Source: Campylobacteraceae bacterium (GTDB lineage Bacteria > Campylobacterota > Campylobacteria > Campylobacterales > Arcobacteraceae). From it: a DNA stretch of 33,250 nt. This document shows positions 10,114-30,848 of this stretch, piece by piece. Each line of letters begins with the position of its first letter. Positions within the stretch are counted from its first letter, which is position 1. The stretch spans positions 1 to 33,250 of the forward strand of contig JABSOL010000009.1 of the NCBI GenBank assembly GCA_013215985.1, read 5' to 3'. Made by a program: the position numbers and the translations under genes. The notes under the pieces are model-generated. The model saw only the letters and a list, made by a program, of their open reading frames with translations, made no database searches and was not told the origin of the DNA.

Positions 10114-10121
10114 AATAAAAC

Positions 10122-12580: not shown

Positions 12581-12589
12581 TAGTTTTCC

Positions 12590-14308: not shown

Positions 14309-14317
14309 GTTTTATCC

Positions 14318-15469
14318 TTATAAATTTACTACAGTTTTATTTTCATTAGATTCAATAATTGCATTTAATACTAATGCAACATTTTTTGCATCTTCAAAAT
14401 TAACTTTTTTACTATTATCTTTATTAGCTATTACATTTAAAAAATTTGATACTTCAATTGCTTTTAAATCTTCATATCCTAATCCTGAACCATCTGATGG
14501 ATTAAAATTACCATGATTTGAATACTCAGGCGAAGAATATATTTTTTTATAACCATTCTTTCCATTTTCATCATGAGTATATAAATGCATAGTATTCATC
14601 TCTTCAAAGTTCCATTTAATACTTCCCTTAGATCCATGAACTTCAAATGTCATTTCAGATGTTGGACCATAAAAAGCTCTTGATGAATCAATATAACCTC
14701 TTGCTCCATTTTTAAACTTCACAATTGCATTTACATAATCATCATTAGTAACAGCTTTCATTTCATCATCTTTTGAGCCCTTAGCATAATGAGAAGCTCC
14801 AGCAGGTGCAATTGGACGCTCTTTTATAAAAGTATCCATTACCCCTTGAACTTCTTTTACTTCACCCATTAAATTAATAGCCATATCAACAGCATGAGAC
14901 ATAATGTCTGTTAAAGCTCCATGGCCATTTTCTTTTTCAAAGCGCCAAGAATAAAAACCTAATTCATCAGCTGCATAACAAGAAAAGAATCTTCCTCTAA
15001 AATGTCTAAGTTCTCCTAAAGTACCCTCTTCTATTAGTTTTTTAGCTTCTTGAACAAGTGGAGACCATCTATAGTTATATCCCACAAAAGTCTCTTTCTC
15101 ATAATCTTTAACTAACTCATAAGCTTTTATAGTATCATCAGGAAAAGCCCCTACTGGTTTTTCACAATTTATATGTTTTTTATGTTTAATACAATATTTA
15201 ATCATTTCTAAGTGTAATGAATTTGGTGCTGTAATATCTACAATATCAACAGCAGGATCTTCAACTACTTTTTTCCAATCTGTTGTATATTTTTCAAAAC
15301 CAAATCTTTCTTTTGCTGCTTTTGCACGTTCTTCTATTATTTCACTACAAATAATTAAGTTAGGTTTTACATTAATTTGAGAAAATTTTGCTTGTATGCT
15401 ATTATATGCATTCGAATGAGCTTCACCCATCCAACCCATTCCGATTACTCCAATTCCTAATTCTTTCAT
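14318..15469 (-). CDS. Gfo/Idh/MocA-family dehydrogenase, possibly for another inositol isomer
   Basis: An NAD(P)-dependent oxidoreductase with the Rossmann motif GVIGMGWMGEAH at the N-terminus. The catalytic residues are kept: Lys104 in CEKPV, Asp188 and His192 in TDIMSHAVD. At 383 residues it is longer than the neighbouring IolG, mainly through an insert near residues 205-235. It lies between iolE (9 bases upstream) and the sugar-acid dehydratase (9 bases downstream), both in the same operon. Several inositol loci carry extra members of this family that interconvert scyllo- or chiro-inositol and inososes, which is the simplest role. A sugar or uronate dehydrogenase feeding the dehydratase is the alternative. 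Confidence 0.85.
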   Translation of the reverse strand: MKELGIGVIGMGWMGEAHSNAYNSIQAKFSQINVKPNLIICSEIIEERAKAAKERFGFEKYTTDWKKVVEDPAVDIVDITAPNSLHLEMIKYCIKHKKHINCEKPVGAFPDDTIKAYELVKDYEKETFVGYNYRWSPLVQEAKKLIEEGTLGELRHFRGRFFSCYAADELGFYSWRFEKENGHGALTDIMSHAVDMAINLMGEVKEVQGVMDTFIKERPIAPAGASHYAKGSKDDEMKAVTNDDYVNAIVKFKNGARGYIDSSRAFYGPTSEMTFEVHGSKGSIKWNFEEMNTMHLYTHDENGKNGYKKIYSSPEYSNHGNFNPSDGSGLGYEDLKAIEVSNFLNVIANKDNSKKVNFEDAKNVALVLNAIIESNENKTVVNL

Positions 15470-15478
15470 AATAGGCCC

Positions 15479-16351
15479 TTATATAATTTTTGATAAATAT
15501 GAATATGCTTTTTTTGCATACTCTAATGGATTAGCTATTTTTGGATCTTGTTCAGCTTCTACAACTATCCAACCCTTATAATTAATCTCTCTTAAAACAT
15601 CAATAATTGGCTCAAAGTCAATTACTCCATCACCTGGAACTGTATAAACACCTTTTAAAACTGAATCTAAAAAACTTTCATCATTTTTTATAACCAAAGC
15701 TCTTACATCTTCTCTTACATCTTTAAAATGTACATGAGATATTCTATTTTTATGTTTTTTGATTTCTTCTAAGGGATTTGCACCTGCAAAATACATATGC
15801 CCTGAATCATAAGCTAAACCAACTTCATCATCACAAAAAGATAAAAACATGTCAATTTCATCTGAATTCTGAATAATTGTTCCCATATGATGGTGATAAG
15901 CTAAAACTACACCTCTTTGTTTTGCATGAAAAAATAATTTTGTATAATCAGATGCAAATTCTTTCATTTCATTTTTAGATAAAACAGGTTTTTTACTTAA
16001 TGCAATTTCTTGATTTCCTTGAATAGTATTTGAACACTCACAATAAACAACAATATTACAATTTACATATAATCGTTTATCTATTTCTTTATCTAATCTT
16101 TTGATTTCATCTTCAAGTGAATCAACTAATAAATTACCAGAGAACCATCCACCTGCTAGTTCTAAATCATATTTTAAAAGAACTTGTTTTAATTCTTCTT
16201 TATCTTGAGGAAATTTTCCTCCAAGTTCAGTCCCTATAAACCCAGATTCTCTTAGTTCTTTTAAACATACGTCTAAAGGAGTATCTCCTCCTAATTGAGG
16301 TAAGTCGTCATTTGTCCAGGCAATTGGCGCTGTTGCTAGTTTTACTTCCAT
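15479..16351 (-). CDS. iolE: myo-Inosose-2 dehydratase
   Basis: Dehydrates 2-keto-myo-inositol to 3D-(3,5/4)-trihydroxycyclohexane-1,2-dione, the second enzymatic step of inositol breakdown. It is a xylose-isomerase-like TIM barrel, 290 residues, matching IolE. The opening KLATAPIAWTNDDLP is characteristic. Probable metal ligands are Asp182 in YDSGH, His in HVHFKD (206 or 208) and Glu265 in VVEAEQD; the HHHMGT segment near 153 is also typical. Its ATG follows the iolD stop directly with no bases between, so translation is coupled to iolD. No oddities are visible. Confidence 0.95.
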   Translation of the reverse strand: MEVKLATAPIAWTNDDLPQLGGDTPLDVCLKELRESGFIGTELGGKFPQDKEELKQVLLKYDLELAGGWFSGNLLVDSLEDEIKRLDKEIDKRLYVNCNIVVYCECSNTIQGNQEIALSKKPVLSKNEMKEFASDYTKLFFHAKQRGVVLAYHHHMGTIIQNSDEIDMFLSFCDDEVGLAYDSGHMYFAGANPLEEIKKHKNRISHVHFKDVREDVRALVIKNDESFLDSVLKGVYTVPGDGVIDFEPIIDVLREINYKGWIVVEAEQDPKIANPLEYAKKAYSYLSKII

Positions 16352-18199
16352 TTATACTCCTTTTCTTTGTTCTTTTACGTTTACTTCATAATTTTCTCTA
16401 GCTTTTCTAATACTTTCTTTTTCATTTACTTCTGGAACTCCAACTTCCCACCAGGCATCTGAATCTTCTGTCCAGTTATATTTTGAAACTTCAATATGAA
16501 TTAAATACGTTTTATCAGATTCAACGGCTCTTAAATAAGCCTCTTTTAAATCTTCTATTTTTTCTACATACTCAGCATTTGCACCCATAGCTTTGGCATG
16601 CTGTACATAATCAACACCAAAAGCTTTATCTTTTAATTTACAATCTTCAATTAAATTATTAAAAGGCTTGGCCCCTTGATTAATTTGTAATCTATTGATT
16701 ACTGCATATCCTTGGTTATCACAAACAATAATTATCATTTTATCACCAGATAAAACAGAAGAATATATCTCAGAATTTAACATCATATAAGAACCATCTC
16801 CTGTAAATACAATGTTTTGGCCTTCTTTATTTGCAATAGCTGATCCATATCCACCTGATACTTCATAACCCATACAAGAAAAACCATATTCATTATCAAT
16901 AGTGTTAATTCCAAGACTCTGCCAAATAGTATTAATTTCACCTGGTAATCCACCAGCTGCTGCGATTAATCTATCTTTTGGACTTACTAATTTATTAATA
17001 GCACCTACAATATTTGCATATGAAGTGATTTGATTTTTTTCATTAATTTTATTTTCTACAAATTCTAAATATCTTTTTTTATTTTCTTTTGCTTCTATTA
17101 TTAATTTTTCATCTGCTTTATAATCTTTAAGACCCTCAATTAATTCTATTAAAGTCTCTTTTGCATCACCTACAACAGATAAACTTGTATGCTTAGTAGC
17201 ATCAAATCTTGAAGTATTAATTGAAACAAATTTTGCTTCTTTATTTTTAAATATACTCATAGATCCAGTTGTAAAATCTTGTAACCTCGTACCTATATTT
17301 ATAATTACATCTGCTTTATTTATTAAAGAATTAATTGCTTTAGTTCCAGATACTCCAACAGGACCTATATTTAGCTCATCTTGGGCTAAAAAAGCTGTTT
17401 TTGCTGAAACTGTAGTTCCAAAAGGAATATTACATTGAAGTGCTAAAACATTTACCTCATCTCTAGCTTTAGAAAATAAAACCCCTCCACCTGCAATTAT
17501 CACAGGTCTTTTTGCATTTTTAATTATTTTGATAGCTTCATTTATTTCATTTTTATCAGCTCTTGGTTTTGCCATTTTGTGAATAGTTTTCTTAAAAAAT
17601 GTTTCTTCATAATCATAAGCTAAGCTTTGAGTATCTTGACAAACACTTATATAAGCAGGACCACAAGTTCGTGGATCCATCATCATAGCTATTGCCTGAG
17701 GAAAAGACTGCATAATTTGCGCAGGATGAGTTATTCTATCCCAGTACTTAACTATTGGCTTAAAACAATCACTAGCAGAACTTGTTGAGTCACTCTCAAC
17801 TTCAACTTGCTGTAAAACAGGATGAGGAAGTCTTGAATTAAATACATCTCCACTTAACATTAATAAAGGTAATGAATTTGTATATGCAACACCAGCTGCT
17901 GTTATCATGTTTGTGGCACCTGGTCCAACGGATGTAGTAACAAGCATAATTTGCTCTCTGTTTTTAACCCTTGAATAAGCAATAGCAGCTAAAGCCATTG
18001 CTTGTTCATTTTGTCCTCTATAAGTAGGGAATTCGTCTTTAATATCATATAAAGCTTCAGCAATACAAGTTACATTTCCATGCCCAAAAATTCCAAAAGC
18101 TCCATTAATTAACTTCTCTTGGCCTTTTGATGTTTGTATATATTGATTATTTAAATATTTTACAATAGCTTGACCTACTGTTAATCTAATTGTTGCCAT
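16352..18199 (-). CDS. iolD: 3D-(3,5/4)-trihydroxycyclohexane-1,2-dione hydrolase (IolD)
   Basis: A thiamine-diphosphate enzyme that opens the inositol ring, giving 5-deoxyglucuronate. Length 615 is normal. The N-terminal Pyr domain has the cofactor-activating Glu65 in RGQNEQA. The C-terminal PP domain has the Mg-TPP motif GDGSYMMLNSE near residue 466, with a following conserved Asn in CDNQGY. The start MATIRLTVGQA is typical of IolD. It is the fourth gene of the operon, 12 bases after the ABC ATPase gene. It is the strongest single marker that this operon degrades inositol, because I know no other common role for the family. Confidence 0.96.
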   Translation of the reverse strand: MATIRLTVGQAIVKYLNNQYIQTSKGQEKLINGAFGIFGHGNVTCIAEALYDIKDEFPTYRGQNEQAMALAAIAYSRVKNREQIMLVTTSVGPGATNMITAAGVAYTNSLPLLMLSGDVFNSRLPHPVLQQVEVESDSTSSASDCFKPIVKYWDRITHPAQIMQSFPQAIAMMMDPRTCGPAYISVCQDTQSLAYDYEETFFKKTIHKMAKPRADKNEINEAIKIIKNAKRPVIIAGGGVLFSKARDEVNVLALQCNIPFGTTVSAKTAFLAQDELNIGPVGVSGTKAINSLINKADVIINIGTRLQDFTTGSMSIFKNKEAKFVSINTSRFDATKHTSLSVVGDAKETLIELIEGLKDYKADEKLIIEAKENKKRYLEFVENKINEKNQITSYANIVGAINKLVSPKDRLIAAAGGLPGEINTIWQSLGINTIDNEYGFSCMGYEVSGGYGSAIANKEGQNIVFTGDGSYMMLNSEIYSSVLSGDKMIIIVCDNQGYAVINRLQINQGAKPFNNLIEDCKLKDKAFGVDYVQHAKAMGANAEYVEKIEDLKEAYLRAVESDKTYLIHIEVSKYNWTEDSDAWWEVGVPEVNEKESIRKARENYEVNVKEQRKGV

Positions 18200-18211
18200 A
18201 CACTTTTCCTT

Positions 18212-19006
18212 TTATAGATTTTTAGAGTCTTCACCTAACTCTTCACTTAAATCTTGAATTACTTTTCCACCAGCCATTTTTTCTTGTAGTTCAGCAACTG
18301 TTACACCTGATTTATCATATGTTCCAAATGTTTGACCTCTGTTTAAAATAGTAAATCTATCTCCAACTGCAAAAGCATGATATACATTATGAGTAATAAA
18401 AATTACAGCTAATCCTTTTGAACGTGCTTGTAAAATATATTTTAATACCATAGAAGATTGAGCAACACCTAAAGCAGATGTAGGCTCATCTAAAATTAAT
18501 ACTTTTGCTCCAAAATAAACGGCTTTAGCAATTGCAAGACATTGCCTCTCACCACCTGAAAGTGTTCCAACAGCTTGTGAAGCTTCTCTAATATTAATAC
18601 CAATTTCTCTCATCGCATCAAATGCAATTTTGTCAGCTTTTTTAAAATCCAAGAATTTAAAGGGGCCCCATTTTTTTTCAATTACATCTTCTCTTCCTAA
18701 AAAGAAGTTTCTTGAAATTGACATTAATGGAATAGTTGATAAATCTTGATAAACAGTAGCAATTCCTGCATTTAATAATTTCTCAGGACTTGGATTTACT
18801 ATATCAACACCATCAATTTTATATACACCTGATGTTTTTGCATGAACACCTGCCAAAGTCTTAATTAGCGTTGATTTTCCAGCACCATTGTCACCTAATA
18901 AACACATTACTTCACCTGGATATAAATCCATAGATATTCCATTTAAAGCAATAATATTCCCAAAATGTTTTGTTACATCTTTAATTTGAATAATAGGTTT
19001 TTTCAT
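18212..19006 (-). CDS. ABC transporter ATP-binding protein of the sugar/inositol importer
   Basis: Drives import through the permease encoded just upstream. A single nucleotide-binding domain of 264 residues carries Walker A GDNGAGKST (38-46), the signature LSGGERQ (149-155) and Walker B LILDEPTS (170-177). Many CUT2 sugar importers have a doubled ATPase of about 500 residues. This short form resembles FrcA-like proteins, found with fructose or inositol transporters in marine bacteria. One base separates it from the permease gene. Substrate is inferred from the operon: myo-inositol. Confidence 0.94.
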   Translation of the reverse strand: MKKPIIQIKDVTKHFGNIIALNGISMDLYPGEVMCLLGDNGAGKSTLIKTLAGVHAKTSGVYKIDGVDIVNPSPEKLLNAGIATVYQDLSTIPLMSISRNFFLGREDVIEKKWGPFKFLDFKKADKIAFDAMREIGINIREASQAVGTLSGGERQCLAIAKAVYFGAKVLILDEPTSALGVAQSSMVLKYILQARSKGLAVIFITHNVYHAFAVGDRFTILNRGQTFGTYDKSGVTVAELQEKMAGGKVIQDLSEELGEDSKNL

Positions 19007-19007
19007 T

Positions 19008-20087
19008 TTAGCTTCTCATAATCTTTTTTCTAACACTATTACTTAACATAACAGCAGCAAGTAACATCAGACCTAAAAATACTCTAAACCAATCACTATC
19101 AATTGAAGTATAAGAAATTCCAATATTAACAATTCCAAAAATTAAAGCTCCTAAAGATGCTCCAATAACTGTTCCATAACCACCTGTTAATAAGGCTCCC
19201 CCCATAACAACTGCAATAATTGCTTCAAATTCTTTTAATAAACCTCTTTGTGCATCAGCTGAACCATAATCAAAAACTTGACAAGCAGCAAATACAGTAG
19301 CACAGAATGCTGTTCCCATAAATAATAGAATTTTTACTTTATCAGTTGGAACTCCCATATTTTTAGAAGCTTGTTCATCTCCACCCGTAGCATAAATCCA
19401 GTTTCCATATTTTGTTAATCTTAAAATAACAACACCTACAATAGTAAGTCCAAACCACCATACTAATAACATTTTTATACCAGTAACAACAGGTGTACCG
19501 TCATCAAAAGTATCAATAATTCCCATATTCCCCAAGTAAATAAATACAGAAGTAAAAGCTTCTCCACCAAATAACGATGCTATCCAGTCACCTTCTGCGG
19601 CTTCTTTTACACCACCAACTAAAGTTTGATCTGTTAAAAGTCTTGAAACTGCAACTGTTAATCCTCTTAGTACAAATAAAGAAGCTAAAGTAACAATAAA
19701 TGAAGGTAATTTTGTTTTAACAACGATATAACCATTTATAAAACCAATTCCACAAGCTATTACAAAAGCTGTCGTAATTGAAATCCATGCGGGAAATCCA
19801 TACTCTACTGTCATGATTGCCATTATTATTCCTGAAAATCCAATCATTGAACCAACTGATAAATCAAACTCTCCACCAATCATTAATAAACAAGCTCCAA
19901 CTGCTAGTATTCCAATTAAGGCAGCTTGTTCAGTCCAAGATAAAACACCCTCAAGCCTAAACATTGATTCATCAGCAATTCCAAAAAAAACTAAAAATAC
20001 ACCTATAACTCCAACAACTGAAGTAAACTCTGGTTTTTTAAAAACCTTTGAAAAAAACGATTCTTCACTTATTCTTTCATCTACCAT
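19008..20087 (-). CDS. ABC transporter permease of the sugar/inositol importer (CUT2 type)
   Basis: Inner-membrane channel of the importer, 359 residues, with hydrophobic segments spread through the protein as in the RbsC/FrcC family. The family motif is recognisable in GGEFDLSVGS near residue 72, and GALLTGGYGTVIGA lies near the C-terminus. The start ATG has a Shine-Dalgarno (AAAGGG) on the minus strand. It follows the binding-protein gene after 52 bases that contain a strong hairpin, and it precedes the ATPase gene by one base. Confidence 0.93.
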   Translation of the reverse strand: MVDERISEESFFSKVFKKPEFTSVVGVIGVFLVFFGIADESMFRLEGVLSWTEQAALIGILAVGACLLMIGGEFDLSVGSMIGFSGIIMAIMTVEYGFPAWISITTAFVIACGIGFINGYIVVKTKLPSFIVTLASLFVLRGLTVAVSRLLTDQTLVGGVKEAAEGDWIASLFGGEAFTSVFIYLGNMGIIDTFDDGTPVVTGIKMLLVWWFGLTIVGVVILRLTKYGNWIYATGGDEQASKNMGVPTDKVKILLFMGTAFCATVFAACQVFDYGSADAQRGLLKEFEAIIAVVMGGALLTGGYGTVIGASLGALIFGIVNIGISYTSIDSDWFRVFLGLMLLAAVMLSNSVRKKIMRS

Positions 20088-20101
20088 TTTTTACCCTTTA
20101 T

Positions 20102-20124
20102 AAAACTAGGGAAACCCTAGTTTT
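20102..20124 (-). terminator. Intergenic hairpin between binding-protein and permease genes
   Basis: A perfect 10-base stem (AAAACTAGGG / CCCTAGTTTT) around a three-base loop lies just after the binding-protein stop. It probably acts as a partial terminator or as a 3'-end stabiliser of the binding-protein mRNA, as in many importer operons. The genes downstream still need read-through, since no other promoter is obvious. Confidence 0.6.
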
Positions 20125-20139
20125 GTATTTCAAATATTT

Positions 20140-21045
20140 TTATCTATATTTACCAGCGTATTTTTCTACATTAGAAACATTTGCTTTTGTAATATATCCA
20201 GGTCCTGAGTTAATATCACCACTTTGTAAAACTCCATATTTAGCCATTTGAGTTAATACAACAATTGGCATATAACCTTGTAAATATTGTTGTTGATCAA
20301 TTGCAAAATCAATTACTCCACTTTTAATACCTTTTAAAATATCTTTACTAACATCAAAAGTAACAAAATAAGTATGCTTACCTAATCTTGCTTTTTTAAT
20401 TGCTTTCATTGTTGGACTTGCACCTGTTGGTCCAAGTGTTAAAACAGCATCAACATTTTTTAATTTAGGTTTAACTTTTCTCTCAATTTCAGAAGGATCA
20501 GTATTTACATCTAACATATTATTTTTAACACCTAATGCATCTGCAAAACCTTGACATCTTTTTTCTAATGATACATTTGTAATTTCATGATTTACACATA
20601 AAAAAGATTTTACACCTGCTTTTTTTGCTCTTTTACCAGCTTGCAATCCAGCATCGTACTCAGACTGTCCAATATGCATTAATGTTCCAATTGATTTACC
20701 AAAATCTCCACCTGAGTTAATTGTAATAACTGGAATTCCTAATTTAATCGCTTTTTTAATAGCTCCACCTAAAGCATCAGAATCTGGAATTGAAACAACT
20801 AGACCATCTGGTCTTTTCGCAATTGCTGAATTAATCAGTCTTGCCATTTCAGTTAAATCTCCAGAGGCAGGATTTCTGTAATTTACATTAACTCCCATAT
20901 CTTTTTCTGCGTTGTTAACACCATTTTTAACAACAGACCAAAATGTATCTGTATCTGCACCATGCGTTATAACAGCAATGTTTATATCTTTAGCCATGAT
21001 TAAACTTGATGCACATAATAAACCACACACAATTTTCTTTAACAT
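20140..21045 (-). CDS. Periplasmic sugar/inositol-binding protein of the ABC importer
   Basis: Captures the substrate in the periplasm and delivers it to the permease. 301 residues with a clear signal peptide (MLKKIVCGLLCASSLIMA, cleavage near residue 18). The body is a Peripla_BP_4/RbsB-like fold: VITHGADTDTFWSVVKNG near the N-terminus is typical of inositol- or fructose-binding members, and GPTGASPT lies near residue 220. It has a strong Shine-Dalgarno, AAAGGAG, and is the first gene of the ten-gene operon. Binding of myo-inositol is inferred from iolD/iolE/iolG downstream. Confidence 0.93.
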   Translation of the reverse strand: MLKKIVCGLLCASSLIMAKDINIAVITHGADTDTFWSVVKNGVNNAEKDMGVNVNYRNPASGDLTEMARLINSAIAKRPDGLVVSIPDSDALGGAIKKAIKLGIPVITINSGGDFGKSIGTLMHIGQSEYDAGLQAGKRAKKAGVKSFLCVNHEITNVSLEKRCQGFADALGVKNNMLDVNTDPSEIERKVKPKLKNVDAVLTLGPTGASPTMKAIKKARLGKHTYFVTFDVSKDILKGIKSGVIDFAIDQQQYLQGYMPIVVLTQMAKYGVLQSGDINSGPGYITKANVSNVEKYAGKYR

Positions 21046-21320
21046 AATAGACTCCTTTAATTTGTCTTTCTACATTCCAATTCTAAATCAAAAGAGTAGC
21101 AATTGAATATCATTTGTTCAAAATATAGAAAAAATCTTTAAACATGTGTAGTTATGTAACATAAATAAACAATTCTTATTTTTTTGATATTACAATTAGA
21201 ATTTTGTTATTTTATGAGTATAAAAGTTACATATATTGCCTTATTTTATCTACAATCTATAAAAGTATTGTAAAATTGTTAAAAATCTTTTATAGTTATC
21301 TAAACTTTATAGGATAAATA
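21046..21320. promoter_or_regulatory. Divergent promoter region of the two inositol transcription units
   Basis: This 275-base gap holds no gene I can support. For the minus operon, TATATTT at 21121-21127 after a T-run is a possible -10 box. A 13-base palindrome, TTATGTAACATAA, sits at 21152-21164. Its half TATGTAAC (21153-21160, plus) recurs in inverse orientation at 21226-21233. These may be sites for a regulator that controls both sides. I could not choose a single -10 box for the plus operon; several A+T-rich candidates exist. Confidence 0.4.
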
Positions 21321-22430
21321 ATGAAAAAAGAGCTAATTATTATTGGTGGTGGTTATGCAGGTACAACTTTAATCAATAAACTTGAAAGTAAATTTACTAT
21401 TACTTTAATAGATGAAAATAAATATCATATAGAACAAACTGAAATTCATAGGTATTTAGGTGGTCAAATACTTTTAGATGATCTTATTTTTAAGTATGAA
21501 AACTATTCAAAGAAAAAAAATTTTAATTATATAAATAAAACTGTTACTAAACTTGATTTCGAGAATAATATAGTTTTTATGGATAATGAGTCTTTAAAAT
21601 ACGATTATTTAGTTATTTCAAATGGTTCTAAAACATTTTTTCCTAAACAAATTAAAAATCTTGATTTTCATAAAAAGGACATAAAACTTCTTGAAGTAAT
21701 TAAAAACTTTAAAAATGATTTTGATTCATTATTAAAAATAAAAAATAAAAAAATAAATATTGTAATTGCAGGAGCTGGATTAAGTGGTGTTGAAATTGCC
21801 ATTGAATTAGCACAAAAAATAAAAGATAATAATATCAGTCCAAATGATATGAAAATTACTTTAGTAGAGCAGCAAAAAACAATTTTACCTGGAAATAATG
21901 ACTTCTTAATAAATAAAACAAAAGAAGTATTAAATAATTTTGATGTTACTTGTGTACATAATGAATTTATTACTCAAATAGAAGATAATAAAATAATCTT
22001 ATCAAATAATGAAGAGATATTTTATGACTTATCATTATTTGTTTTAGGTGTAAGTACAATTAATATTAAAAATGAGAACAATATTGAAGTAAATATTAAA
22101 AATCAATATATTGTAAATGATTATTTTCAAATAAATGATTTTTCTAATGTTTTTTGTATTGGAGACGCAGCACAAACACTAAGTCCTGAAGGTAAATATA
22201 ATTTACCAACAGCTCAAATGGCAAATCAACAAGCAGAAGTTTTAAGTTCAAATTTAAAAAATATTTTAAAAAATAAAACATTTATTATAAAAGAATTAAA
22301 ACTGAAAGGAGTATTAATAGATTTAGGAAAGAATAATGCAGTTGGTCTAATTGGTAATTTAAAATTAAATGGATATATTGCGTTTATATTAAAAAGGTTT
22401 ACTAGTTATTTGCATAAAATAAAATTTTAA
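21321..22430 (+). CDS. NDH-2-like FAD/NAD(P)-dependent oxidoreductase
   Basis: A flavoprotein of the type II NADH dehydrogenase/pyridine-nucleotide-disulphide family. The FAD-binding motif GGGYAG is at residues 9-14, the NAD(P)-binding motif GAGLSG near 151 and the second FAD motif IGDAA near 281. The C-terminal part (VGLIGNLKLNGYIAFILKR) resembles the membrane-attaching end of NDH-2 enzymes. At 369 residues it is slightly short for NDH-2 but complete. It is the first gene of the plus operon with the IolG paralogue (18 bases) and iolA (10 bases). A sensible role is re-oxidising NADH made by inositol catabolism and passing electrons to quinone. A sulfide:quinone or other reductase role cannot be excluded. 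Confidence 0.82.
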   Translation: MKKELIIIGGGYAGTTLINKLESKFTITLIDENKYHIEQTEIHRYLGGQILLDDLIFKYENYSKKKNFNYINKTVTKLDFENNIVFMDNESLKYDYLVISNGSKTFFPKQIKNLDFHKKDIKLLEVIKNFKNDFDSLLKIKNKKINIVIAGAGLSGVEIAIELAQKIKDNNISPNDMKITLVEQQKTILPGNNDFLINKTKEVLNNFDVTCVHNEFITQIEDNKIILSNNEEIFYDLSLFVLGVSTINIKNENNIEVNIKNQYIVNDYFQINDFSNVFCIGDAAQTLSPEGKYNLPTAQMANQQAEVLSSNLKNILKNKTFIIKELKLKGVLIDLGKNNAVGLIGNLKLNGYIAFILKRFTSYLHKIKF

Positions 22431-22448: not shown

Positions 22449-23471
22449 ATGAAAATATTAAAAATTGGTATTGTTGGTCTTGGAAGAATGGGACAAGAGC
22501 ATTTACAACTTATATCTGAGTATATTCCAGGTGCAAAAGTAAAAGCTGTATGTGACATTGAGTTTAATGATAATGCAAAGAAATTGATTAAAAAGTATGG
22601 AATTAGAGAGAAATACAGTGATTATAATAATATGTTAAAAGATAAATTACTTGATATTATTTATATTTGCACACCTATTGACGATTTAACAAGAATCTCA
22701 ATTGCATGTATAAAAGCGAATAAACATACATTTTGTGAAGAAAACTTGTCTAAGCGTCCACAAGATATAAAAGACTTAATGAAAGTTCTTGAGAGTTCTA
22801 AATCAAAATTTTTTGTTGGATTAAATAAAAGGTTTGATAATAATTTTAATTCTGTAAGAGACACAGTATTAAAAGGAAAAATAGGAGAACCTCAAATTAT
22901 AAAAATAACTTCAAGAGATCCAGATTTTCCATCATTGGAATATCTAAAGAGCTCAGGAGGTCTATTTTTTGATATGACTGTTGATGATTTTGATATGTTA
23001 AGATATCTAACTGGAGCAGAAATTGAAGAAGTTTACGCAATGGGTGCTGTATTAATTGATCCAAGAATTAAAGAGTTTAATGATATTGATACAGCAACAT
23101 TAAATGTAAAACTTTCAAATGGTGTTTTATGTGTAATTGATAATTCAAGAAGAGCTTTATATGGTTATGACCAAAGAATAGAAGTACATGGTTCTCTAGG
23201 AATGGTTACAACTTCAAATGAATTACAATCAAAAGCAAAAATTTATACAGGATATGGGGTTATTGAAGAAAAACCTCAGTATCTAATGTTAGAGAGATAT
23301 AAGTATGCTTATATTAAAGAAACTGAACATTTTATTTCATGTATATTAGAAGATAAAGAACCCCTAACAGGTTGCAATGATGCTTTAGAAACATTATATG
23401 CAGCACAAGCGGCTATGAAATCTTTAACTGAAAATAGACCAGTAAAGATTTCAGAAATTAAATTAAATTAA
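22449..23471 (+). CDS. Catalytically degenerate IolG paralogue (Gfo/Idh/MocA family)
   Basis: 340 residues, clearly similar to the IolG at 11564-12580 over its length (shared [27 protein letters not shown]). The Rossmann motif [12 protein letters not shown] is kept. However, the catalytic Lys of CEKP is Glu98 here (CEEN), and the catalytic His four residues after Asp175 is Asp179 (DMTVDDFD). Loss of both should abolish normal alcohol oxidation. The reading frame is intact and sits between the flavoprotein and iolA genes with good ribosome sites, so it looks retained, not decaying. Possible roles are ligand sensing, partner binding or different chemistry. Calling it an active inositol dehydrogenase would be risky. 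Confidence 0.85.
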
Positions 23472-23481
23472 AGGGAAAAAA

Positions 23482-24984
23482 ATGAGTAATGTAATTAAAG
23501 CGTTAATAGATGGAGTATTAGTTGAAAGTAAATCTACTCAGTTTGTAGATATGGTATCACCTCTAACAAATGAAGTTATTGGAAAAGTTCCGTGTATGTT
23601 AAAAGAAGAAATAGATGAAGCTGTGCAAAAAGCTCATCAAGCATATTTATTATGGAGATTTACTCCGGTAATGACAAGAACTAGAGTAATGCTTAAATAT
23701 CAAGCGCTTGTAAAAGAAAATATGGAAGAGTTGGCTACTATTTTATGTAAAGAATCTGGAAAAACTTTTGCTGACGCAAAAGGTGATTTAGTAAGAGGTT
23801 ATGAAGTAATTGAATTTGCTTGTTCTGCTCCTACTCTTTTAATGGGTGAAACAATTGAAAATGTTGCAAATAAAGTTAATACTTACTCATATAAACAAGC
23901 GATTGGAGTTTGTGCAGGAATCACACCTTTTAACTTCCCAGGAATGATTCCTTTATGGATGTTTCCATTATCAATTGTCGCAGGAAATGCATTTATTCTA
24001 AAACCTTCTGAAATGGTTCCAAATACTGCTTTAAGATTAGCAGAACTTTTATATGAAGCGGGAGCTCCTAAAAATATCCTACAAGTTGTTCATGGACAAA
24101 AAGAACAAGTTGATATGTTATTAGATCATGATTTAGTTAGATCATACTCATTTGTAGGAAGCCCTGCAGTAGGAGGATATATTTATTCACGTGCAACTGC
24201 TAATTTAAAAAGAGCACAGGCTTTAGTAGGAGCTAAAAACCATATGGTAATTATGCCAGATGCAAATAAAGAGAATGTAATTAATGCACTTGTTGGAGCT
24301 TCAATGGGAGCAGCTGGGCAACGATGTATGGCTATATCTGTTGCTTTATTTGTAGGATCTTCAAAAGAATGGATTCCTGAATTAGTAGAAAGATTAAAAA
24401 AAGTAAAACCTGGTGTTTGGGATGATGAAAGTGCTGATTATGGTCCACTTATTACTAAAAAAGCTCAAGAAAAAGTTGAAAGATTAATTCAAGAAGGTGT
24501 AGATGAAGGTGCTAACTTAGTATTAGATGGAAGAGGAGCTACAGTTGAAGATTATCCAAATGGAAACTGGGTTGGTCCTACTGTATTTAGAGATGTTAAA
24601 GTTGATATGAGTATTTATAAAGAAGAAATCTTCGGACCTGTTATTTCACTTTTAGAGCCTAAAACATTAAATGAAGCCTTAGATATTATTAATAATAATA
24701 TGTTTGGGAATGGAACTTCTATCTTCACATCAAGTGGGGCATCTGCTACTAAATTTAGAAGAGAAGTACTTGTTGGCCAAGTTGGTATTAATATTCCAAT
24801 TCCTGTTCCTTTACCATTCTTCTCATTTACAGGTTGGAGAGGATCATTTTATGGTGATTTACATGCTTATGGAAAACAAGCTATGACTTTTTATACTGAA
24901 ACTAAAACAGTTACAGAAAAATGGTTTGAAAATGAAGAACATGAAGAAATTGCGTTTAACTTCAAAGAAAATCACTCTAAATAA
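23482..24984 (+). CDS. iolA: (Methyl)malonate-semialdehyde dehydrogenase (CoA-acylating)
   Basis: Converts malonate semialdehyde plus CoA and NAD+ to acetyl-CoA and CO2, the last step of inositol breakdown; methylmalonate semialdehyde is the other family substrate. Length 500. It shows the MMSDH signature: Asn in [12 protein letters not shown], Cys283 in GQRCMA, and Asn instead of the general-base Glu in GAKNH. The C-terminal [13 protein letters not shown] stretch is typical. It closes the three-gene plus operon and ends before a strong palindromic terminator. Its presence beside iolD/iolE fits inositol use and supplies an outlet for malonate semialdehyde whichever upstream route makes it. 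Confidence 0.94.
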
Positions 24985-25026: not shown

Positions 25027-25863
25027 TTATTTAAAAATACCCAATACTTCTTTCATTGTAATATTATCTATACTTTTAATATTTAGATTATCTAAGCACA
25101 TTTTTAAATATTTAACTTGAGAAGAATTATTAGAAGCTAGTTCTCCACTTGGTAAAACAATTGAATTCTCAAAACCAATTCTCAAATGCCCACCTAAACA
25201 AGCAGCCATTACTAAAGAAGGTATTTCCATTTGTCCAAAAGCACATACCATCCAATTAATTTGACTGTTAAGTTTAAGTTTTTCAAGAGTGTTTAAAAAA
25301 ACTAATAAATCTTTTGGATTTGATTCTTTATTCTTTGAATATCTTCCTAAAACAAATAAAATACTATGTTTTTCACCACAAATGATTTCTTGTTCTAATA
25401 ATTTATTAAATTTTATTAAATCTTCATAAGAATATAAAATATGCTGTATTCCAATATTTTCAGCTCTCGAAAAAAAGAAAAAATCTTTTATTTCTTTTAA
25501 TGTTTTTACTGAGTCATTTTCAATTATTTCTTTTATACTAATTGAAGCACACTCTGGTTTTAAATTCTTTATTAACCTTCTTATATCAGAAGAGTTATAC
25601 TCTCCTAAAGTTTCACTTGTAACTTGAACTATAAAATCATCATGCAAATCTTTTTTTAAAAAGTGCAGCGTTTCTTTGTATTTATTTAAATCTAAACTAT
25701 GTTTATTTTTATCATCTCGTATATGCAAATGAATAGCTTGCGCACCTTCCTTAGCGCATAATTTTGCAGTTTTTAATAAATCATATTTATTTAAAGGTAC
25801 TTTTTTATGGTCTTTAAGTGATAATCTAGCCCCATTTGCGGCTATCATTATTCCAGTTTTCAT
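25027..25863 (-). CDS. BKACE (beta-keto acid cleavage enzyme, DUF849)
   Basis: A zinc TIM-barrel enzyme of the family founded by Kce, which condenses a beta-keto acid with acetyl-CoA to give acetoacetate and a new acyl-CoA. Zinc-binding His45 and His47 lie in IHLHIRD, and Glu232 in LRIGFENS takes the place of the third-ligand region of Kce. The opening AANGARLSLKDH is the family start. Length 278 is normal. The start overlaps the aminotransferase stop as TAATG, so the two are translationally coupled. The aminotransferase partner suggests the beta-keto acid comes from an amino compound. The real substrate cannot be read from sequence alone. Confidence 0.9.
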   Translation of the reverse strand: MKTGIMIAANGARLSLKDHKKVPLNKYDLLKTAKLCAKEGAQAIHLHIRDDKNKHSLDLNKYKETLHFLKKDLHDDFIVQVTSETLGEYNSSDIRRLIKNLKPECASISIKEIIENDSVKTLKEIKDFFFFSRAENIGIQHILYSYEDLIKFNKLLEQEIICGEKHSILFVLGRYSKNKESNPKDLLVFLNTLEKLKLNSQINWMVCAFGQMEIPSLVMAACLGGHLRIGFENSIVLPSGELASNNSSQVKYLKMCLDNLNIKSIDNITMKEVLGIFK

Positions 25864-27206
25864 TAAAAACCTTTCATTTTTAAAGAAATATTTATAGCTT
25901 CTTCTAATTTATCTACAAGCTCAATAATTTCTTTTTTATTAATAATAAATGGAGGTGCTAATAAGATATGATCACCTTCAATTCCTAAATTACTTCCTGA
26001 ACTTGGATAACATAATAGTCCCAAATCTTTAGCTGTTTTTTTTATTTGTACATTTATTTTTAATGAAGTATCAAAGCATTTTTTACTTTCTTTATTTTCT
26101 ACAAGTTCAATTCCTACAAAAAGTCCTTTTCCTCTAATATCACCAATATAATTATGGTTTTTAAAACGTTCTTTTAATTCATTTTTTAAGAATATCCCCA
26201 TTTTTTTAACATTTGAAAGTAAATTATTTTTATCTATTTCTTCTAAAACTGCTAATCCTGCAGCACAAGCAGTTGCATGTCCTATATAAGTGTGTCCATG
26301 AGAGAATGAACCTGAGCCATTTTTAATTTTATTAAATATATTTTTTGAAATAAGAGTAGCAGCTAGTGGCTGATATCCACCTGCTATTCCTTTAGCAATT
26401 GTTATAATATCAGATTTAACACCTGTGTACTCAGAAGTAAACATATAAGCAGTTCTTCCCATTCCACACATGATTTCATCAAAAATTAGTAAAACTCCAT
26501 ATTTATCACAAATCTCACGTATTTTTTTATAATATATTAAAGGTGCTCCAACTGCACCTAATGCAGAACCTACTATTGGTTCCATTATAAAAGCACTAAC
26601 TGTTTTAGAGCCAAGTTCTAAAATCTTTTTTTCTAAGTATGAAGCAGCTCTAAGTGCATATTCATCTAAACTTTCTTCTTTTGTTTTTAATCTATAAGCA
26701 TACATAGGCTCAATATGATGCATACAAGAAGATAAATATGGTGAAAAAGCCTCTTTTCTTTTTAAACTTCCTCCAACACTTAAAGTACTAAGAGTATTGC
26801 CATGATATGATTGAAGTCTTGATATTATATTTATTCTCTCAGGCTCATTATTTTCAAGATGATATTGCCTTACAAGTTTTAATGCTGTTTCAACTGCTTC
26901 GGAACCTCCTGATAAAAAATAAACTTTGTCTATATTAGAAGGTGCTTTTTTTACTAAAATGGCCGCTAATTCTTCAGCAGGTTTATTTGTCATAAAAGAA
27001 GTATGAGCATAAGCCAAAGTATCTACTTGTTTTTTAATAGCATCTCTTACTTTTTTATTACTATGTCCTAAACAAGAAACAGCAGCTCCAGATGATCCAT
27101 CTAAATATTTTTTTCCGTTTTCATCAAATATATATATACCCTCACCTTTTACAGCAACTGGTAAAACTTCATTTAAATCTCTATGTAAAATGTAACCTGT
27201 ATCCAT
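25863..27206 (-). CDS. Class III PLP-dependent aminotransferase
   Basis: Transfers an amino group, usually from an omega- or beta-amino acid or an amine, to pyruvate or 2-oxoglutarate. It is an ornithine/omega-amino-acid aminotransferase-type protein of 447 residues. PLP-binding features are present: SGGSEA near 99-104, Asp243 in FDEIMCGMGR and Lys272 in AKGIAGGY. It lies 9 bases after the GntR gene and overlaps the BKACE gene. Together these suggest a short catabolic operon in which the transaminase makes the keto acid that BKACE cleaves. Beta-alanine, beta-glutamate, beta-lysine-like or diamine substrates are all possible. Confidence 0.93.
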   Translation of the reverse strand: MDTGYILHRDLNEVLPVAVKGEGIYIFDENGKKYLDGSSGAAVSCLGHSNKKVRDAIKKQVDTLAYAHTSFMTNKPAEELAAILVKKAPSNIDKVYFLSGGSEAVETALKLVRQYHLENNEPERINIISRLQSYHGNTLSTLSVGGSLKRKEAFSPYLSSCMHHIEPMYAYRLKTKEESLDEYALRAASYLEKKILELGSKTVSAFIMEPIVGSALGAVGAPLIYYKKIREICDKYGVLLIFDEIMCGMGRTAYMFTSEYTGVKSDIITIAKGIAGGYQPLAATLISKNIFNKIKNGSGSFSHGHTYIGHATACAAGLAVLEEIDKNNLLSNVKKMGIFLKNELKERFKNHNYIGDIRGKGLFVGIELVENKESKKCFDTSLKINVQIKKTAKDLGLLCYPSSGSNLGIEGDHILLAPPFIINKKEIIELVDKLEEAINISLKMKGF

Positions 27207-27215
27207 AATTTTTCC

Positions 27216-27848
27216 TTATCTTAATAAAACTATTTTAGAACCTGTTTCAAAATAATGATCTTTTATTGTATTTTCTATATTTTCTTTATCTAGTGATTTT
27301 AAAACATCAAGAATCTTTTTATGTCTATTTTTGATTTCTTCTAATGTATATAATTTAGACCAATTCTGTGAAAATAAAAGCAAAGACTTTTTATTTAGTT
27401 TTTCTAAAACATCCAGTAAAACCGTATTTTTCGCATATTTTAAATAATATTTATGAAATTTTTTTCCAAGTTCTGCAACTTCTTTTGCATTATTATCTTT
27501 ACTGCACATTAAATATAAGTATTCTTCTAAAACAGAAATATCTTTTTCATTAGCATATGAGGCAAAACTTCTTGCTAAAAAACCTTCAATCAAACCTTTT
27601 GATTCATAAGTGTTTAAAATATCAGAAGATGAAATATTCTTAAGAAACACACCCCTATTTTGAACTTGTTCTAAAATTCCTAAAGAAACTAATTCAGATA
27701 AAGCTTCTCTAATTGGTGCACGACTAACTTCTAACTTTATTGCAATAAAATTTTCTTTTATTTGTTCATTTTGTTTGTACTCATTGTTTAAAATAGCTTC
27801 ATAAATATATTCTATGATTTTGTTTTTTAAAGATATATTTTTTATCAT
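27216..27848 (-). CDS. GntR-family (FCD/FadR subfamily) transcription regulator
   Basis: A repressor or activator with an N-terminal winged helix (SRAPIREALSEL is the canonical recognition region) and an all-helical FCD ligand-binding domain. The frame is open upstream to a TTG at 27887, but that TTG is part of an operator palindrome and lies at the expected transcription start. ATG at 27848 has AAGG six bases upstream and gives a 210-residue protein starting MIKNISLKN, normal for the family. It is the first gene of the operon with the aminotransferase and BKACE genes. Two copies of TTGTCGACAA lie between its promoter and start, so autoregulation is likely. FCD regulators usually bind an organic acid related to the pathway. 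Confidence 0.9.
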   Translation of the reverse strand: MIKNISLKNKIIEYIYEAILNNEYKQNEQIKENFIAIKLEVSRAPIREALSELVSLGILEQVQNRGVFLKNISSSDILNTYESKGLIEGFLARSFASYANEKDISVLEEYLYLMCSKDNNAKEVAELGKKFHKYYLKYAKNTVLLDVLEKLNKKSLLLFSQNWSKLYTLEEIKNRHKKILDVLKSLDKENIENTIKDHYFETGSKIVLLR

Positions 27849-27856
27849 TTTGAACC

Positions 27857-27866
27857 TTGTCGACAA
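27857..27866. promoter_or_regulatory. GntR operator, proximal copy
   Basis: Perfect 10-base palindrome TTGTCGACAA, of the form known for FadR-subfamily regulators (TTGT...ACAA). It lies 8 bases before the proposed GntR start codon, exactly 21 bases from an identical copy. Confidence 0.75.
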
Positions 27867-27877
27867 TTTCTTCTTTA

Positions 27878-27887
27878 TTGTCGACAA
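27878..27887. promoter_or_regulatory. GntR operator, distal copy
   Basis: A second TTGTCGACAA, identical to the first and 21 bases away, about two helical turns, so two dimers would bind the same face. It covers the expected transcription start just downstream of the -10 box, which fits repression. Confidence 0.75.
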
Positions 27888-27891
27888 TTTT

Positions 27892-27897
27892 ATTATA
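27892..27897 (-). promoter_or_regulatory. Putative -10 box of the GntR-aminotransferase-BKACE operon
   Basis: A perfect TATAAT on the minus strand, five bases before the distal operator. Upstream, over the -35 position, lies a 26-base inverted repeat (12-base arms AATAACTTATAA and complement, 27899-27924). Confidence 0.6.
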
Positions 27898-27898
27898 A

Positions 27899-27924
27899 AA
27901 TAACTTATAAAATTATAAGTTATT
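27899..27924. repeat. Inverted repeat upstream of the GntR promoter
   Basis: Perfect 12-base arms (AATAACTTATAA) separated by two bases. It lies where the -35 region would be, between the TRAP-operon hairpin and the GntR -10 box. It may be a second protein-binding site or part of a tandem terminator. Confidence 0.55.
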
Positions 27925-27930
27925 AATATT

Positions 27931-27959
27931 AATAAATTCTCTTAAAAAGAGAATTTATT
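27931..27959 (-). terminator. Terminator-like hairpin at the end of the TRAP operon
   Basis: Perfect 13-base arms (AATAAATTCTCTT and complement) around a three-base loop, overlapping the stop codon of the last TRAP-operon gene. No clear T-run follows on the minus strand, so termination may be incomplete. Confidence 0.6.
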
Positions 27960-28197
27960 TTTTATGTTTAGGAGGAGAAGCGTACCAGATTTTTTCTAGA
28001 TGATTATAATGCTCATCTAGTTTTTTAGAATTTTTTTCTATTCTTTTATTTGTATCATTTATATTTTCTTTATTAGAAGATATGTTATTTTTATTTTCTT
28101 CAATTAATTCTTGAAGTTTATCCATTTTTTTCTCATATTTATATACAAGTAAATACATAAGAACAACAATACCTCCTATTATAAACCATTCAATCAT
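27955..28197 (-). CDS. Small single-pass membrane protein with cytoplasmic coiled coil
   Basis: 80 residues. One membrane segment at residues 4-20 (FIIGGIVVLMYLLVY) is followed by a Lys/Glu/Asn-rich coiled coil to about residue 70 and an end rich in Pro and Lys. I do not recognise a family. It starts three bases after the end of the TRAP permease gene and ends in the operon's hairpin, so it is made together with the transporter. It could be an assembly or regulatory partner of the permease. The Shine-Dalgarno AAAAAAGGAG belongs to neighbouring TRAP expression; its own start ATG lies at 28197 and is the only sensible one. Confidence 0.7.
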   Translation of the reverse strand: MIEWFIIGGIVVLMYLLVYKYEKKMDKLQELIEENKNNISSNKENINDTNKRIEKNSKKLDEHYNHLEKIWYASPPKHKK

Positions 28198-28200
28198 ATT

Positions 28201-30792
28201 TTACTCCTTTTTTAAATCAATGCTTTCAAGTCTTTTTTTCCTTTTTATTTGAATCCAAGCCATGAAAAACACGAGCATAAATACAGGTATTAAAACAATT
28301 TGTTTAGGAAGTCTATCTCTTTTAACTCTAACTGTTTCAATAATCCAACCACTCTCAACACCAGCTGTTTTAATAGCTTCTACTTGTTTATTATTACCAG
28401 GAATAATCATTGAAACTTCCATAGGACCAAACATACTATCAAGTCTTAAACCTGTTCCATCAATTTTTTCTTTTCCATCTTTACCTTGGGCTAAAGGAAG
28501 TCCAAAAGTAAATGTTCTCTCCACTCCTTCTAGAGTTTCTCCTTTTACTACAAACTCTAAAGTATCTCCTGCTTTCATAGTATCAGCAACTTGGAAAATC
28601 TCAATTCCAGGTTTATAATCAAATGGAGCTTCAATTTTATCCCAGATGTAACCAGGTCTAAACATTAAAAAAGTAACTAATAATAATAAAATAGTTTCCC
28701 ACCATTTATTTTTAGTAAGCCAGAAACCTTGTGTTGCTGCTGCAAACAGAAGCATTCCCACAATTGCCGTAACAACAACAACTACAAAATCAAAAACATT
28801 TTCAATTCCTATCATTAATAATTGTGTATTAAAAATAAACATAAAAGGTAATAAAGCTGTCCTTATATCATAAGTAAAACCTTGAATACCAGTTTTAATT
28901 GGATCTCCCTTGGATATGGCGGCGGCCGCAAAGGCGGCAAGACCCACAGGCGGGGTGTCATCAGCTAAAATTCCAAAATAAAATACAAACATATGAGCTG
29001 CAATTAATGGAATAGTAATATCATTAGCAGCCCCTAAACTTACAATTACAGGTGCCATTAAAGAAGAAACTACAATATAGTTAGCAGTTGTAGGCAGACC
29101 CATGCCAAGAATTAATGAAATAATTGCAGTTAAAAGCAAAATCAAGAATATATTTCCACCTGATACTGTTTCAACTAAAGCAATTACAACTTGTCCAACT
29201 CCTGTTAGGGTTACAGTTCCTACAATAATACCAGCAACGGCAGTAGCAACTCCAATACCAATCATATTTTTAGCTCCATTAATAAGACCTTCTTTTAAAT
29301 CATATAAACCTTCAGATATTCTAATGAAAGGATCTTTATTCCTAAAAAAGTCTAAAAGTGGCTTTTGAGTTAAAACTATAAATATCATAAAAATACTCGC
29401 CCAAAAAGCGGATAAATCAGGTGATAGTCTTTCAACTGTTAATAACCAAACAAGTACTACAACAGGTAATAAATAATGTAAACCTGACTTAACAGTAGGA
29501 CCTACTTCGGGTAAAGTAACAATTTCATCAGTACTTAAATCAGGTACACGTGAGGAATAATATAATAAAGCTAAATAAGTAATACATATCATTAATAAAA
29601 TAGCCATAAAAGTATACTCACCTGCTACACTTTTAATAAAAGCAATAATAGGAGGTAAAACCCACATTAGAAAACCAAGTACAATTAATACAGATAAAAA
29701 TCCAAAAGCTTTTGCTTTTTTACTTAATAAATGTACTCTTGGCATTCCTTTCATACCCATTTTCAAAGCTTCTAAATGTACAATATAAACTAAAGCTATA
29801 TATGAAATAATAGCTGGTAAAAATGCATGTTTAATAATTTCAACAAAAGGAATTCCTACATACTCAACCATCAAAAATGCAGCAGCACCCATAATAGGAG
29901 GAGTTAGCTGTCCATTTGTAGAAGCCGCAACTTCAATAGCTCCTGCTTTTTCAGCAGAAAATCCTACTTTTTTCATTAAAGGAATTGTAAAAGTTCCTGT
30001 AGTTACTACATTGGCAATTGAAGAACCAGAAATCATTCCTGTCATTGCAGATGATACAACAGCTGCTTTCGCAGGTCCGCCTTTAAAATGCCCCATTAAA
30101 GAAAAAGCTACTCTAATGAAATAATTCCCAGCTCCTGCTTGTTCAAGCAAAGAACCAAAAAGAACAAATAGAAAAACCATAGTAGCCGATACACCAATAG
30201 CAATACCAAAAGTACCCTCAGTTGTAATCCACATATGAGATACAATTTTATTAATTGAAGCCCCACCATAATCACCTAAACCAAAAAATGCATAAGTTAA
30301 AGCAAAAAGTGCAACAACCATTAAAGGGGGTCCAAGTGACCTTCTTGTAGCTTCAAGTAAAAGAGCTAAACCAATTAAACTTGTTACTAAATCTAGCGTA
30401 TTTGGAACTCCTAATCTCATTTCAAAATCTTCTGAATTCCATACTTGATTATAAATTAAATAAGCAATACAAGAAAGCAAAACTATTCCCATAATCCAAT
30501 CAGTAATAGGAACATAGTTTTTAGGCGAGTTTTTAAAAGGTAAATAAGATAAATAAGCTAAAAAACCAGCAAACATTAAGTGAATTCTTTTTACAACATC
30601 GGCATTCATCCAAGGTGTGAATTCTAAAACCAGAGGTGACGATACATATAATTGAAATATTGACCAAGATAGTGCTAAATATATTATAAACTTAGCAATA
30701 ATTGGATTTGAAGGACTACGTCCTCCTGACTCAGCTTCTGATGCAATATCTTGAGCAGAAACATTTTGTTTATTATCATTTTCCATAAACAA
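28201..30792 (-). CDS. TRAP transporter permease, fused small and large membrane subunits (TAXI type)
   Basis: Secondary, ion-driven uptake permease in the inner membrane. 863 residues, as expected for the fused 4TM/12TM permeases that pair with TAXI binding proteins. The N-terminal part carries the small-subunit-like helices. The DctM-like core follows, with STNGQLTPPIMGAAAF and, later, MGLPTTANYIV and DDTPPVGLAAF. A hydrophilic C-terminal stretch (about residues 720-835) with its own helices ends the protein, resembling the DUF3394 tail of this group. It lies 56 bases after the TAXI gene, with a hairpin between. Substrate is unknown; known TAXI systems carry organic acids and amino acids such as glutamate. 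Confidence 0.93.
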   Translation of the reverse strand: MFMENDNKQNVSAQDIASEAESGGRSPSNPIIAKFIIYLALSWSIFQLYVSSPLVLEFTPWMNADVVKRIHLMFAGFLAYLSYLPFKNSPKNYVPITDWIMGIVLLSCIAYLIYNQVWNSEDFEMRLGVPNTLDLVTSLIGLALLLEATRRSLGPPLMVVALFALTYAFFGLGDYGGASINKIVSHMWITTEGTFGIAIGVSATMVFLFVLFGSLLEQAGAGNYFIRVAFSLMGHFKGGPAKAAVVSSAMTGMISGSSIANVVTTGTFTIPLMKKVGFSAEKAGAIEVAASTNGQLTPPIMGAAAFLMVEYVGIPFVEIIKHAFLPAIISYIALVYIVHLEALKMGMKGMPRVHLLSKKAKAFGFLSVLIVLGFLMWVLPPIIAFIKSVAGEYTFMAILLMICITYLALLYYSSRVPDLSTDEIVTLPEVGPTVKSGLHYLLPVVVLVWLLTVERLSPDLSAFWASIFMIFIVLTQKPLLDFFRNKDPFIRISEGLYDLKEGLINGAKNMIGIGVATAVAGIIVGTVTLTGVGQVVIALVETVSGGNIFLILLLTAIISLILGMGLPTTANYIVVSSLMAPVIVSLGAANDITIPLIAAHMFVFYFGILADDTPPVGLAAFAAAAISKGDPIKTGIQGFTYDIRTALLPFMFIFNTQLLMIGIENVFDFVVVVVTAIVGMLLFAAATQGFWLTKNKWWETILLLLVTFLMFRPGYIWDKIEAPFDYKPGIEIFQVADTMKAGDTLEFVVKGETLEGVERTFTFGLPLAQGKDGKEKIDGTGLRLDSMFGPMEVSMIIPGNNKQVEAIKTAGVESGWIIETVRVKRDRLPKQIVLIPVFMLVFFMAWIQIKRKKRLESIDLKKE

Positions 30793-30806
30793 CTCCTAAT
30801 AATTTA

Positions 30807-30835
30807 TTAACAAAAGAGCTAAGCTCTTTTGTTAA
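30807..30835 (-). terminator. Hairpin between TAXI and TRAP permease genes
   Basis: Perfect 14-base arms (TTAACAAAAGAGCT and complement) around a single base. It sits after the TAXI stop and before the permease Shine-Dalgarno, AGGAG. It likely limits read-through or stabilises the binding-protein mRNA. Confidence 0.6.
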
Positions 30836-30848
30836 AATCTAAATATTT

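Follow-up and report, generated by a model that had tools for sequence, protein, structure and literature searches.

An Arcobacteraceae genome encodes a relative of inositol 2-dehydrogenase (IolG) which has lost both the catalytic lysine and the catalytic histidine, and is likely incompetent for normal inositol oxidation judging from its residues. The gene (positions 22449-23471, forward strand) is an intact open reading frame of 340 aa within the window, i.e., the 33,250 nucleotides analysed here, which are one entire contig of a 2.78-Mb draft genome; the window has no Rfam matches and no tRNA. The protein is conserved in related genomes, and our tentative preference, with chances close to even, is that it is a canonically inactive protein that would act by binding a ligand and/or a partner.

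The start and stop codons and both altered motifs given in the preliminary description are confirmed. In the paralogue, the motif C96-E97-E98-N99 has Glu-Asn (codons 98-99, 22740-22745) in place of the catalytic lysine and the proline of the EKP motif, with GAA as codon 98 (22740-22742). In D175-M-T-V-D179-D-F-D, an aspartate (codon 179, GAT, 22983-22985) replaces the catalytic histidine, and the triad aspartate, Asp175, is kept. Both catalytic residues are present in all 20 canonical IolGs of the alignment, which come from five phyla (Campylobacterota, Fusobacteriota, Bacillota, Mycoplasmatota and Pseudomonadota). The locus has two more family members, both on the reverse strand, and these also keep the pair, as was claimed: the canonical IolG (11564-12580; CEKP and DMTIHDFD; TIGR04380 388.6 bits) and a second Gfo/Idh/MocA paralogue (14318-15469; CEKP and DIMSHAVD). 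The nearest NCBIfam model of the latter is levoglucosan dehydrogenase, which it matches below the cut-off (325 bits against 650), and it is found in the clusters of 10 of 10 Campylobacterota genomes.

In B. subtilis IolG the catalytic triad is Lys97, Asp172 and His176 (PMC9603128), and only the aspartate of the three is retained in the five orthologous sequences. Position 179 is aspartate in all five and position 98 reads E, E, E, E and S, with serine in the most distant sequence. Therefore, of the two acidic replacements that were expected to be conserved, Asp179 is universal, but Glu98 holds in only four of the five sequences (two of three lineages), although the lysine is lost in every one. 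The change also extends further than the two residues originally noted. Canonical IolGs have 56 invariant or almost invariant columns. In the paralogue clade, 48 of these hold the family residue (E291, one of the 48, with a single deviating sequence), and eight differ: H80L, K98E/S, P99N, F125L, R127K, H179D, I73 (mostly V) and F280 (M/I). The active site is thus remodelled, as H80L, P99N, F125L and R127K are fixed in addition to the catalytic pair; codon 80 (22686-22688), for instance, encodes leucine in place of a histidine found in 20 of 20 canonical IolGs. Positions 80, 98, 99, 125, 127 and 179 are presumably all at or near the catalytic centre. The net effect is the removal of two histidines and one lysine and the addition of one or two carboxylates.

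Much of the remaining site is unchanged. The NAD motif, GxGxxG with its acidic residue, is invariant (G10, G12, G15 and D36), and N126, R156, D157, D175 and Y240 are kept. The substrate-binding positions reported for B. subtilis IolG are F125, N126, R127 and Y235 (PMC9603128), the last of which is Y240 in the paralogue. In a scyllo-inositol dehydrogenase from Paracoccus, single alanine mutants of the lysine, the aspartate or the histidine have lost activity (PMC5969746), which makes normal inositol oxidation unlikely for the paralogue. The cofactor can still bind when the lysine is lost, since one of the K97V mutants of B. subtilis IolG in the PDB has NAD bound (3ntq). With its catalytic residues gone and its fold kept under purifying selection, the paralogue has the features of a pseudoenzyme. 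That label is likely right for the canonical reaction, but coordinated changes in an active site are also what a new reaction would produce.

By score, the protein is an ordinary member of its family. It reaches 369.7 bits with the NCBIfam model for inositol 2-dehydrogenase (TIGR04380, cut-off 355), and its orthologues score 373.6, 368.7, 365.2 and 341.3, the last below the cut-off, i.e., the paralogue passes in four of the five genomes. Pfam families PF01408, PF02894 and PF22725 (the GFO_IDH_MocA N- and C-terminal domains) are all matched above their cut-offs. The AlphaFold model (pLDDT 86) has as its best PDB match 3ezy, T. maritima TM0414 (39% identity, E 9e-37), and also matches 4hkt from S. 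meliloti (38% identity, E 4e-33), as well as NAD-dependent glycosidase-type structures (sulfoquinovosidases). Domains and fold together place it in the Gfo/Idh/MocA family, with an N-terminal Rossmann domain and a C-terminal alpha/beta domain.

The paralogue is present in 5 of 104 Arcobacteraceae genomes, the other four copies being 99, 83, 81 and 65% identical to the one in the window, and the canonical IolG is found in exactly the same five. In these genomes, which in effect represent three lineages and are mostly metagenome assemblies (those relatives that carry names are Arcobacter-type metagenome assemblies), it sits in one conserved divergon. Searches at the order and class level, each covering about 400 evenly sampled genomes, gave no additional copy. 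A contig scan for wider distribution returned three loci, all of them orthologues from the five genomes, a viral scan gave no copy, and all plasmid relatives are below 60% identity. In the tree, the five paralogues form one clade (support 100/100) with a long stem, which falls within the IolG family but separate from the canonical IolGs of Campylobacterota. This rules out a recent duplication of the canonical IolG of the cluster. The nearest neighbour of the clade is IolG from M. hyopneumoniae (90/91), a placement that is not firm. The same changes in four orthologues from separate genomes exclude an assembly error or chance. Read from the tree, the paralogue is an old, separate protein of the IolG lineage.

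Purifying selection, which the preliminary description had proposed to look for, is seen among the orthologues: dN/dS (NG86) is 0.02-0.25 for the paralogue, compared with 0.14-0.34 for its canonical counterpart in these genomes, with dS near saturation for distant pairs. Between species the paralogue is 82-83% identical where the canonical IolG is 64-65% (83% and 65% for G000 against G088). In the same species pairs, the identity of its N-terminal, NAD-binding domain is lower and that of its C-terminal domain higher than in the canonical IolG. This domain contrast has z = -3.6 and -4.0 in the two distant pairs and -1.5 in the nearer pair, and at the level of domains some canonical pairs shift as far (their minimum log odds is -0.79).

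The contrast is sharper in two short stretches. The nicotinamide loop (residues 65-87, including P76 and H80) is relaxed in the paralogue, being 48-52% identical against 78-87% in the canonical IolG. For residues 241-279 (23169-23285, forward strand), identity across species is 87-100% among the orthologues, compared with about 49-56% in the canonical protein; the distant pairs have 87% against 49-51%, and nearer species 100%. In distant pairs, the difference between these two stretches is greater than in all 117 canonical pairs, where the stretches were picked post hoc and the pairs are non-independent. In the AlphaFold model, residues 241-279 fall in strands of the C-terminal sheet; confidence is low at 258-260 and 275-279. 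In a relative, the subunits of the oligomer touch mainly through the C-terminal sheet, and a loop late in the C-terminal domain extends to the neighbouring active site (PMC5969746). As read from these alignments, the constraint has moved from the nicotinamide loop to the C-terminal stretch when compared with the canonical paralogue. The proposal that the gene is kept for a new role is supported, given the purifying selection, the co-occurrence with a canonical IolG in the family and the shifted constraint.

A gene for an NDH-2-like flavoprotein (21321-22430, forward strand) precedes the paralogue, which begins 18 bases past its stop and ends 10 bases ahead of mmsA/iolA (23482-24984, forward strand). 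The product of mmsA/iolA is a CoA-acylating (methyl)malonate semialdehyde dehydrogenase (TIGR01722, 739 bits against 448.5). From these short gaps, the three genes look like one operon. In each of the five genomes mmsA/iolA follows the paralogue, and the NDH-2-like gene adjoins the paralogue in G089 and G070. G087 and G088 (L033:4311-8981 and L034:13890-18558) lack the NDH-2-like gene; there, a hydroxypyruvate-isomerase-like TIM barrel lies between the paralogue and mmsA, and another Gfo/Idh protein and a PhyH-type dioxygenase follow; these extra genes are possibly for modified inositols. In the window, the opposite arm of the divergon (9328-21045, reverse strand) is an inositol operon with the order SBP-permease-ATPase-iolD-iolE-Gfo/Idh-IlvD/Edd dehydratase-iolG-ALDH-HpaI aldolase. 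Outside the divergon, 25027-31802 encodes a beta-keto acid cleavage enzyme, an aminotransferase-like protein, a GntR/FCD regulator and a TRAP/TAXI-type transporter.

The divergent promoter region (21046-21320) contains two direct ATGDGTANNNAAGTWACA boxes, at 21144-21161 and 21214-21231. The boxes, about 70 bp apart, recur at matching positions in G000, G088 and G070, i.e., in the divergent promoters of three lineages, and are not clear in related clusters that lack the paralogue; their statistics are optimistic, as the boxes were derived from comparing these same regions. They suggest an ordinary DNA-binding regulator, which would be encoded elsewhere and unlinked. It had been pointed out that the locus lacks a regulator, and indeed no HTH protein is encoded inside the inositol cluster. 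However, no linked regulator is found in five related Campylobacterota clusters without the paralogue either, so a missing regulator does not require the paralogue.

The cluster suggests an inositol route without phosphorylation. None of the 10 Campylobacterota genomes that carry this cluster has IolB (PF04962) or an IolC that scores over its cut-off (the loci are 9328-20087 and 23482-24984 in the window, and L033-L036 and L062-L067). Yet genes for ALDH, the IlvD/Edd dehydratase and the HpaI aldolase accompany the inositol genes in every stretch long enough to include them, and so does MmsA where seen; the G088 stretch ends before the dehydratase and the aldolase. These genes suggest that 5-deoxyglucuronate is oxidised to 5-deoxyglucarate by ALDH, which the dehydratase would convert to 2-oxo-4-hydroxyadipate; the HpaI-type aldolase would then yield pyruvate and malonate semialdehyde, and MmsA would turn the latter into acetyl-CoA. 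A literature search of partial coverage found no published description of such a route. A published survey demanded at least three of iolB, iolC, iolD and iolE (PMC9430895), and would for that reason miss these clusters.

We suggest that the paralogue could have been retained for binding. The loss of the general base, the histidine, together with the polarising lysine would leave it without NAD-dependent inositol oxidation. It may still bind an inositol-type ligand, perhaps NAD(H), and could act via protein contacts at the C-terminal sheet. The most likely partner would be the canonical IolG, with the paralogue as a non-catalytic subunit or an allosteric partner of the usual tetramer; less likely, a separate regulator would be informed of inositol by it. 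We infer every step beyond the inability to perform the canonical reaction. The five related clusters without the paralogue retain the other inositol genes, so the paralogue would be accessory to the pathway, and the idea that it fills a missing step is unsupported. The narrower claim, that it is a ligand-binding, non-catalytic controller, either an allosteric IolG subunit or an inositol sensor for the divergon, is possible, if rather doubtful.

A new catalytic function would explain the coordinated and largely fixed changes in the active site about as well. It is a quite plausible alternative that the paralogue is active and uses its remodelled site for another reaction, for example as an amino- or substituted-cyclitol dehydrogenase or a redox-assisted lyase or epimerase with tightly bound NAD, in the manner of NAD-dependent glycosidases that share this fold. 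A carboxylate-rich site suits a cation, the changes cluster at the catalytic centre rather than at random, and Asp175 and most pocket residues are kept. Catabolic operons hold mostly enzymes, the neighbours in G087 and G088 are metabolic, and the fold has yielded other chemistries, e.g., the sulfoquinovosidases (PMC10755693) of the type seen among the fold matches. However, every pathway step seems already covered, and the choice of Glu or Ser at position 98 together with the relaxed nicotinamide loop is unexpected if hydride transfer is needed, which favours a protein without it.

It is improbable that the paralogue is still an inositol dehydrogenase, using Asp179 or Asp175 as the base with a weaker or altered substrate preference. 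The family score and the intact NAD motif and pocket residues are consistent with this, but two of the three triad residues are lost along with H80, P99 and R127, alanine mutants of any one triad residue are inactive in a relative (PMC5969746), and a canonical IolG is always co-present. Gal80 of yeast has a Gfo/Idh/MocA-type fold that serves regulation and not catalysis, and was named as a precedent in the preliminary description. A Gal80-like role, in which the paralogue senses inositol or NAD and controls the divergon's transcription factor by binding to it, would agree with the location of the gene at the divergent promoter, with the operator-like boxes in genomes that carry it and with the lack of an HTH protein in the cluster. 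Nevertheless, this is very improbable: the paralogue has no DNA-binding domain, related clusters without it lack a linked regulator too, and the Gal80p C-terminal domain (PF22685) does not match it, and instead matches the 14318-15469 paralogue. The analogy thus has no specific support, and whereas the earlier interpretation as a whole is partly supported, its regulator part is weak. A recently inactivated gene in decay would explain two lost catalytic residues, but is scarcely credible, as the frame is intact in five genomes, dN/dS does not exceed 0.25 and the same residues are lost at 65% identity; this conservation refutes recent decay.

Known systems resemble the paralogue in part. It shares with IolG (TIGR04380; 3ezy and 4hkt) homology over the whole length, the fold, the NAD motif, Asp175, most pocket residues and the inositol cluster, and differs in the replaced lysine, histidine and invariant H80, P99, F125 and R127. 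OxiC and IdhA3 of C. glutamicum are likewise annotated as inositol dehydrogenases, have an altered triad and lack this activity in complementation (PMC9603128). However, there the triad aspartate is changed (to Ile or Glu), and in OxiC also GxGxxG (PMC9603128), whereas the window paralogue keeps both and loses the lysine and histidine. The TbPRMT1 ENZ/PRO heterotetramer pairs a catalytically dead paralogue with an active one (PMC10211241), in a different protein family; the corresponding complex would here be with IolG. GH188 sulfoquinovosidases and GH109 have the same fold and another reaction, but GH188 keeps Lys107 and His193 at its catalytic site (PMC10755693), the equivalents of which are both lost here.

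Annotation pipelines based on NCBIfam would name the paralogue "inositol 2-dehydrogenase", because it exceeds a curated equivalog cut-off, and wrongly imply a normal dehydrogenase; it thus exposes a weak point of score-only annotation. It is also a clean and small natural case of an oxidoreductase minus its catalytic pair, still in its operon and with an active paralogue alongside for comparison. New chemistry, if that is what it has adopted, would give a very large family a new activity. Should it be a controller, it would be a prokaryotic counterpart of the step from enzyme to regulator seen in Gal80, and the transition would be testable in bacteria.
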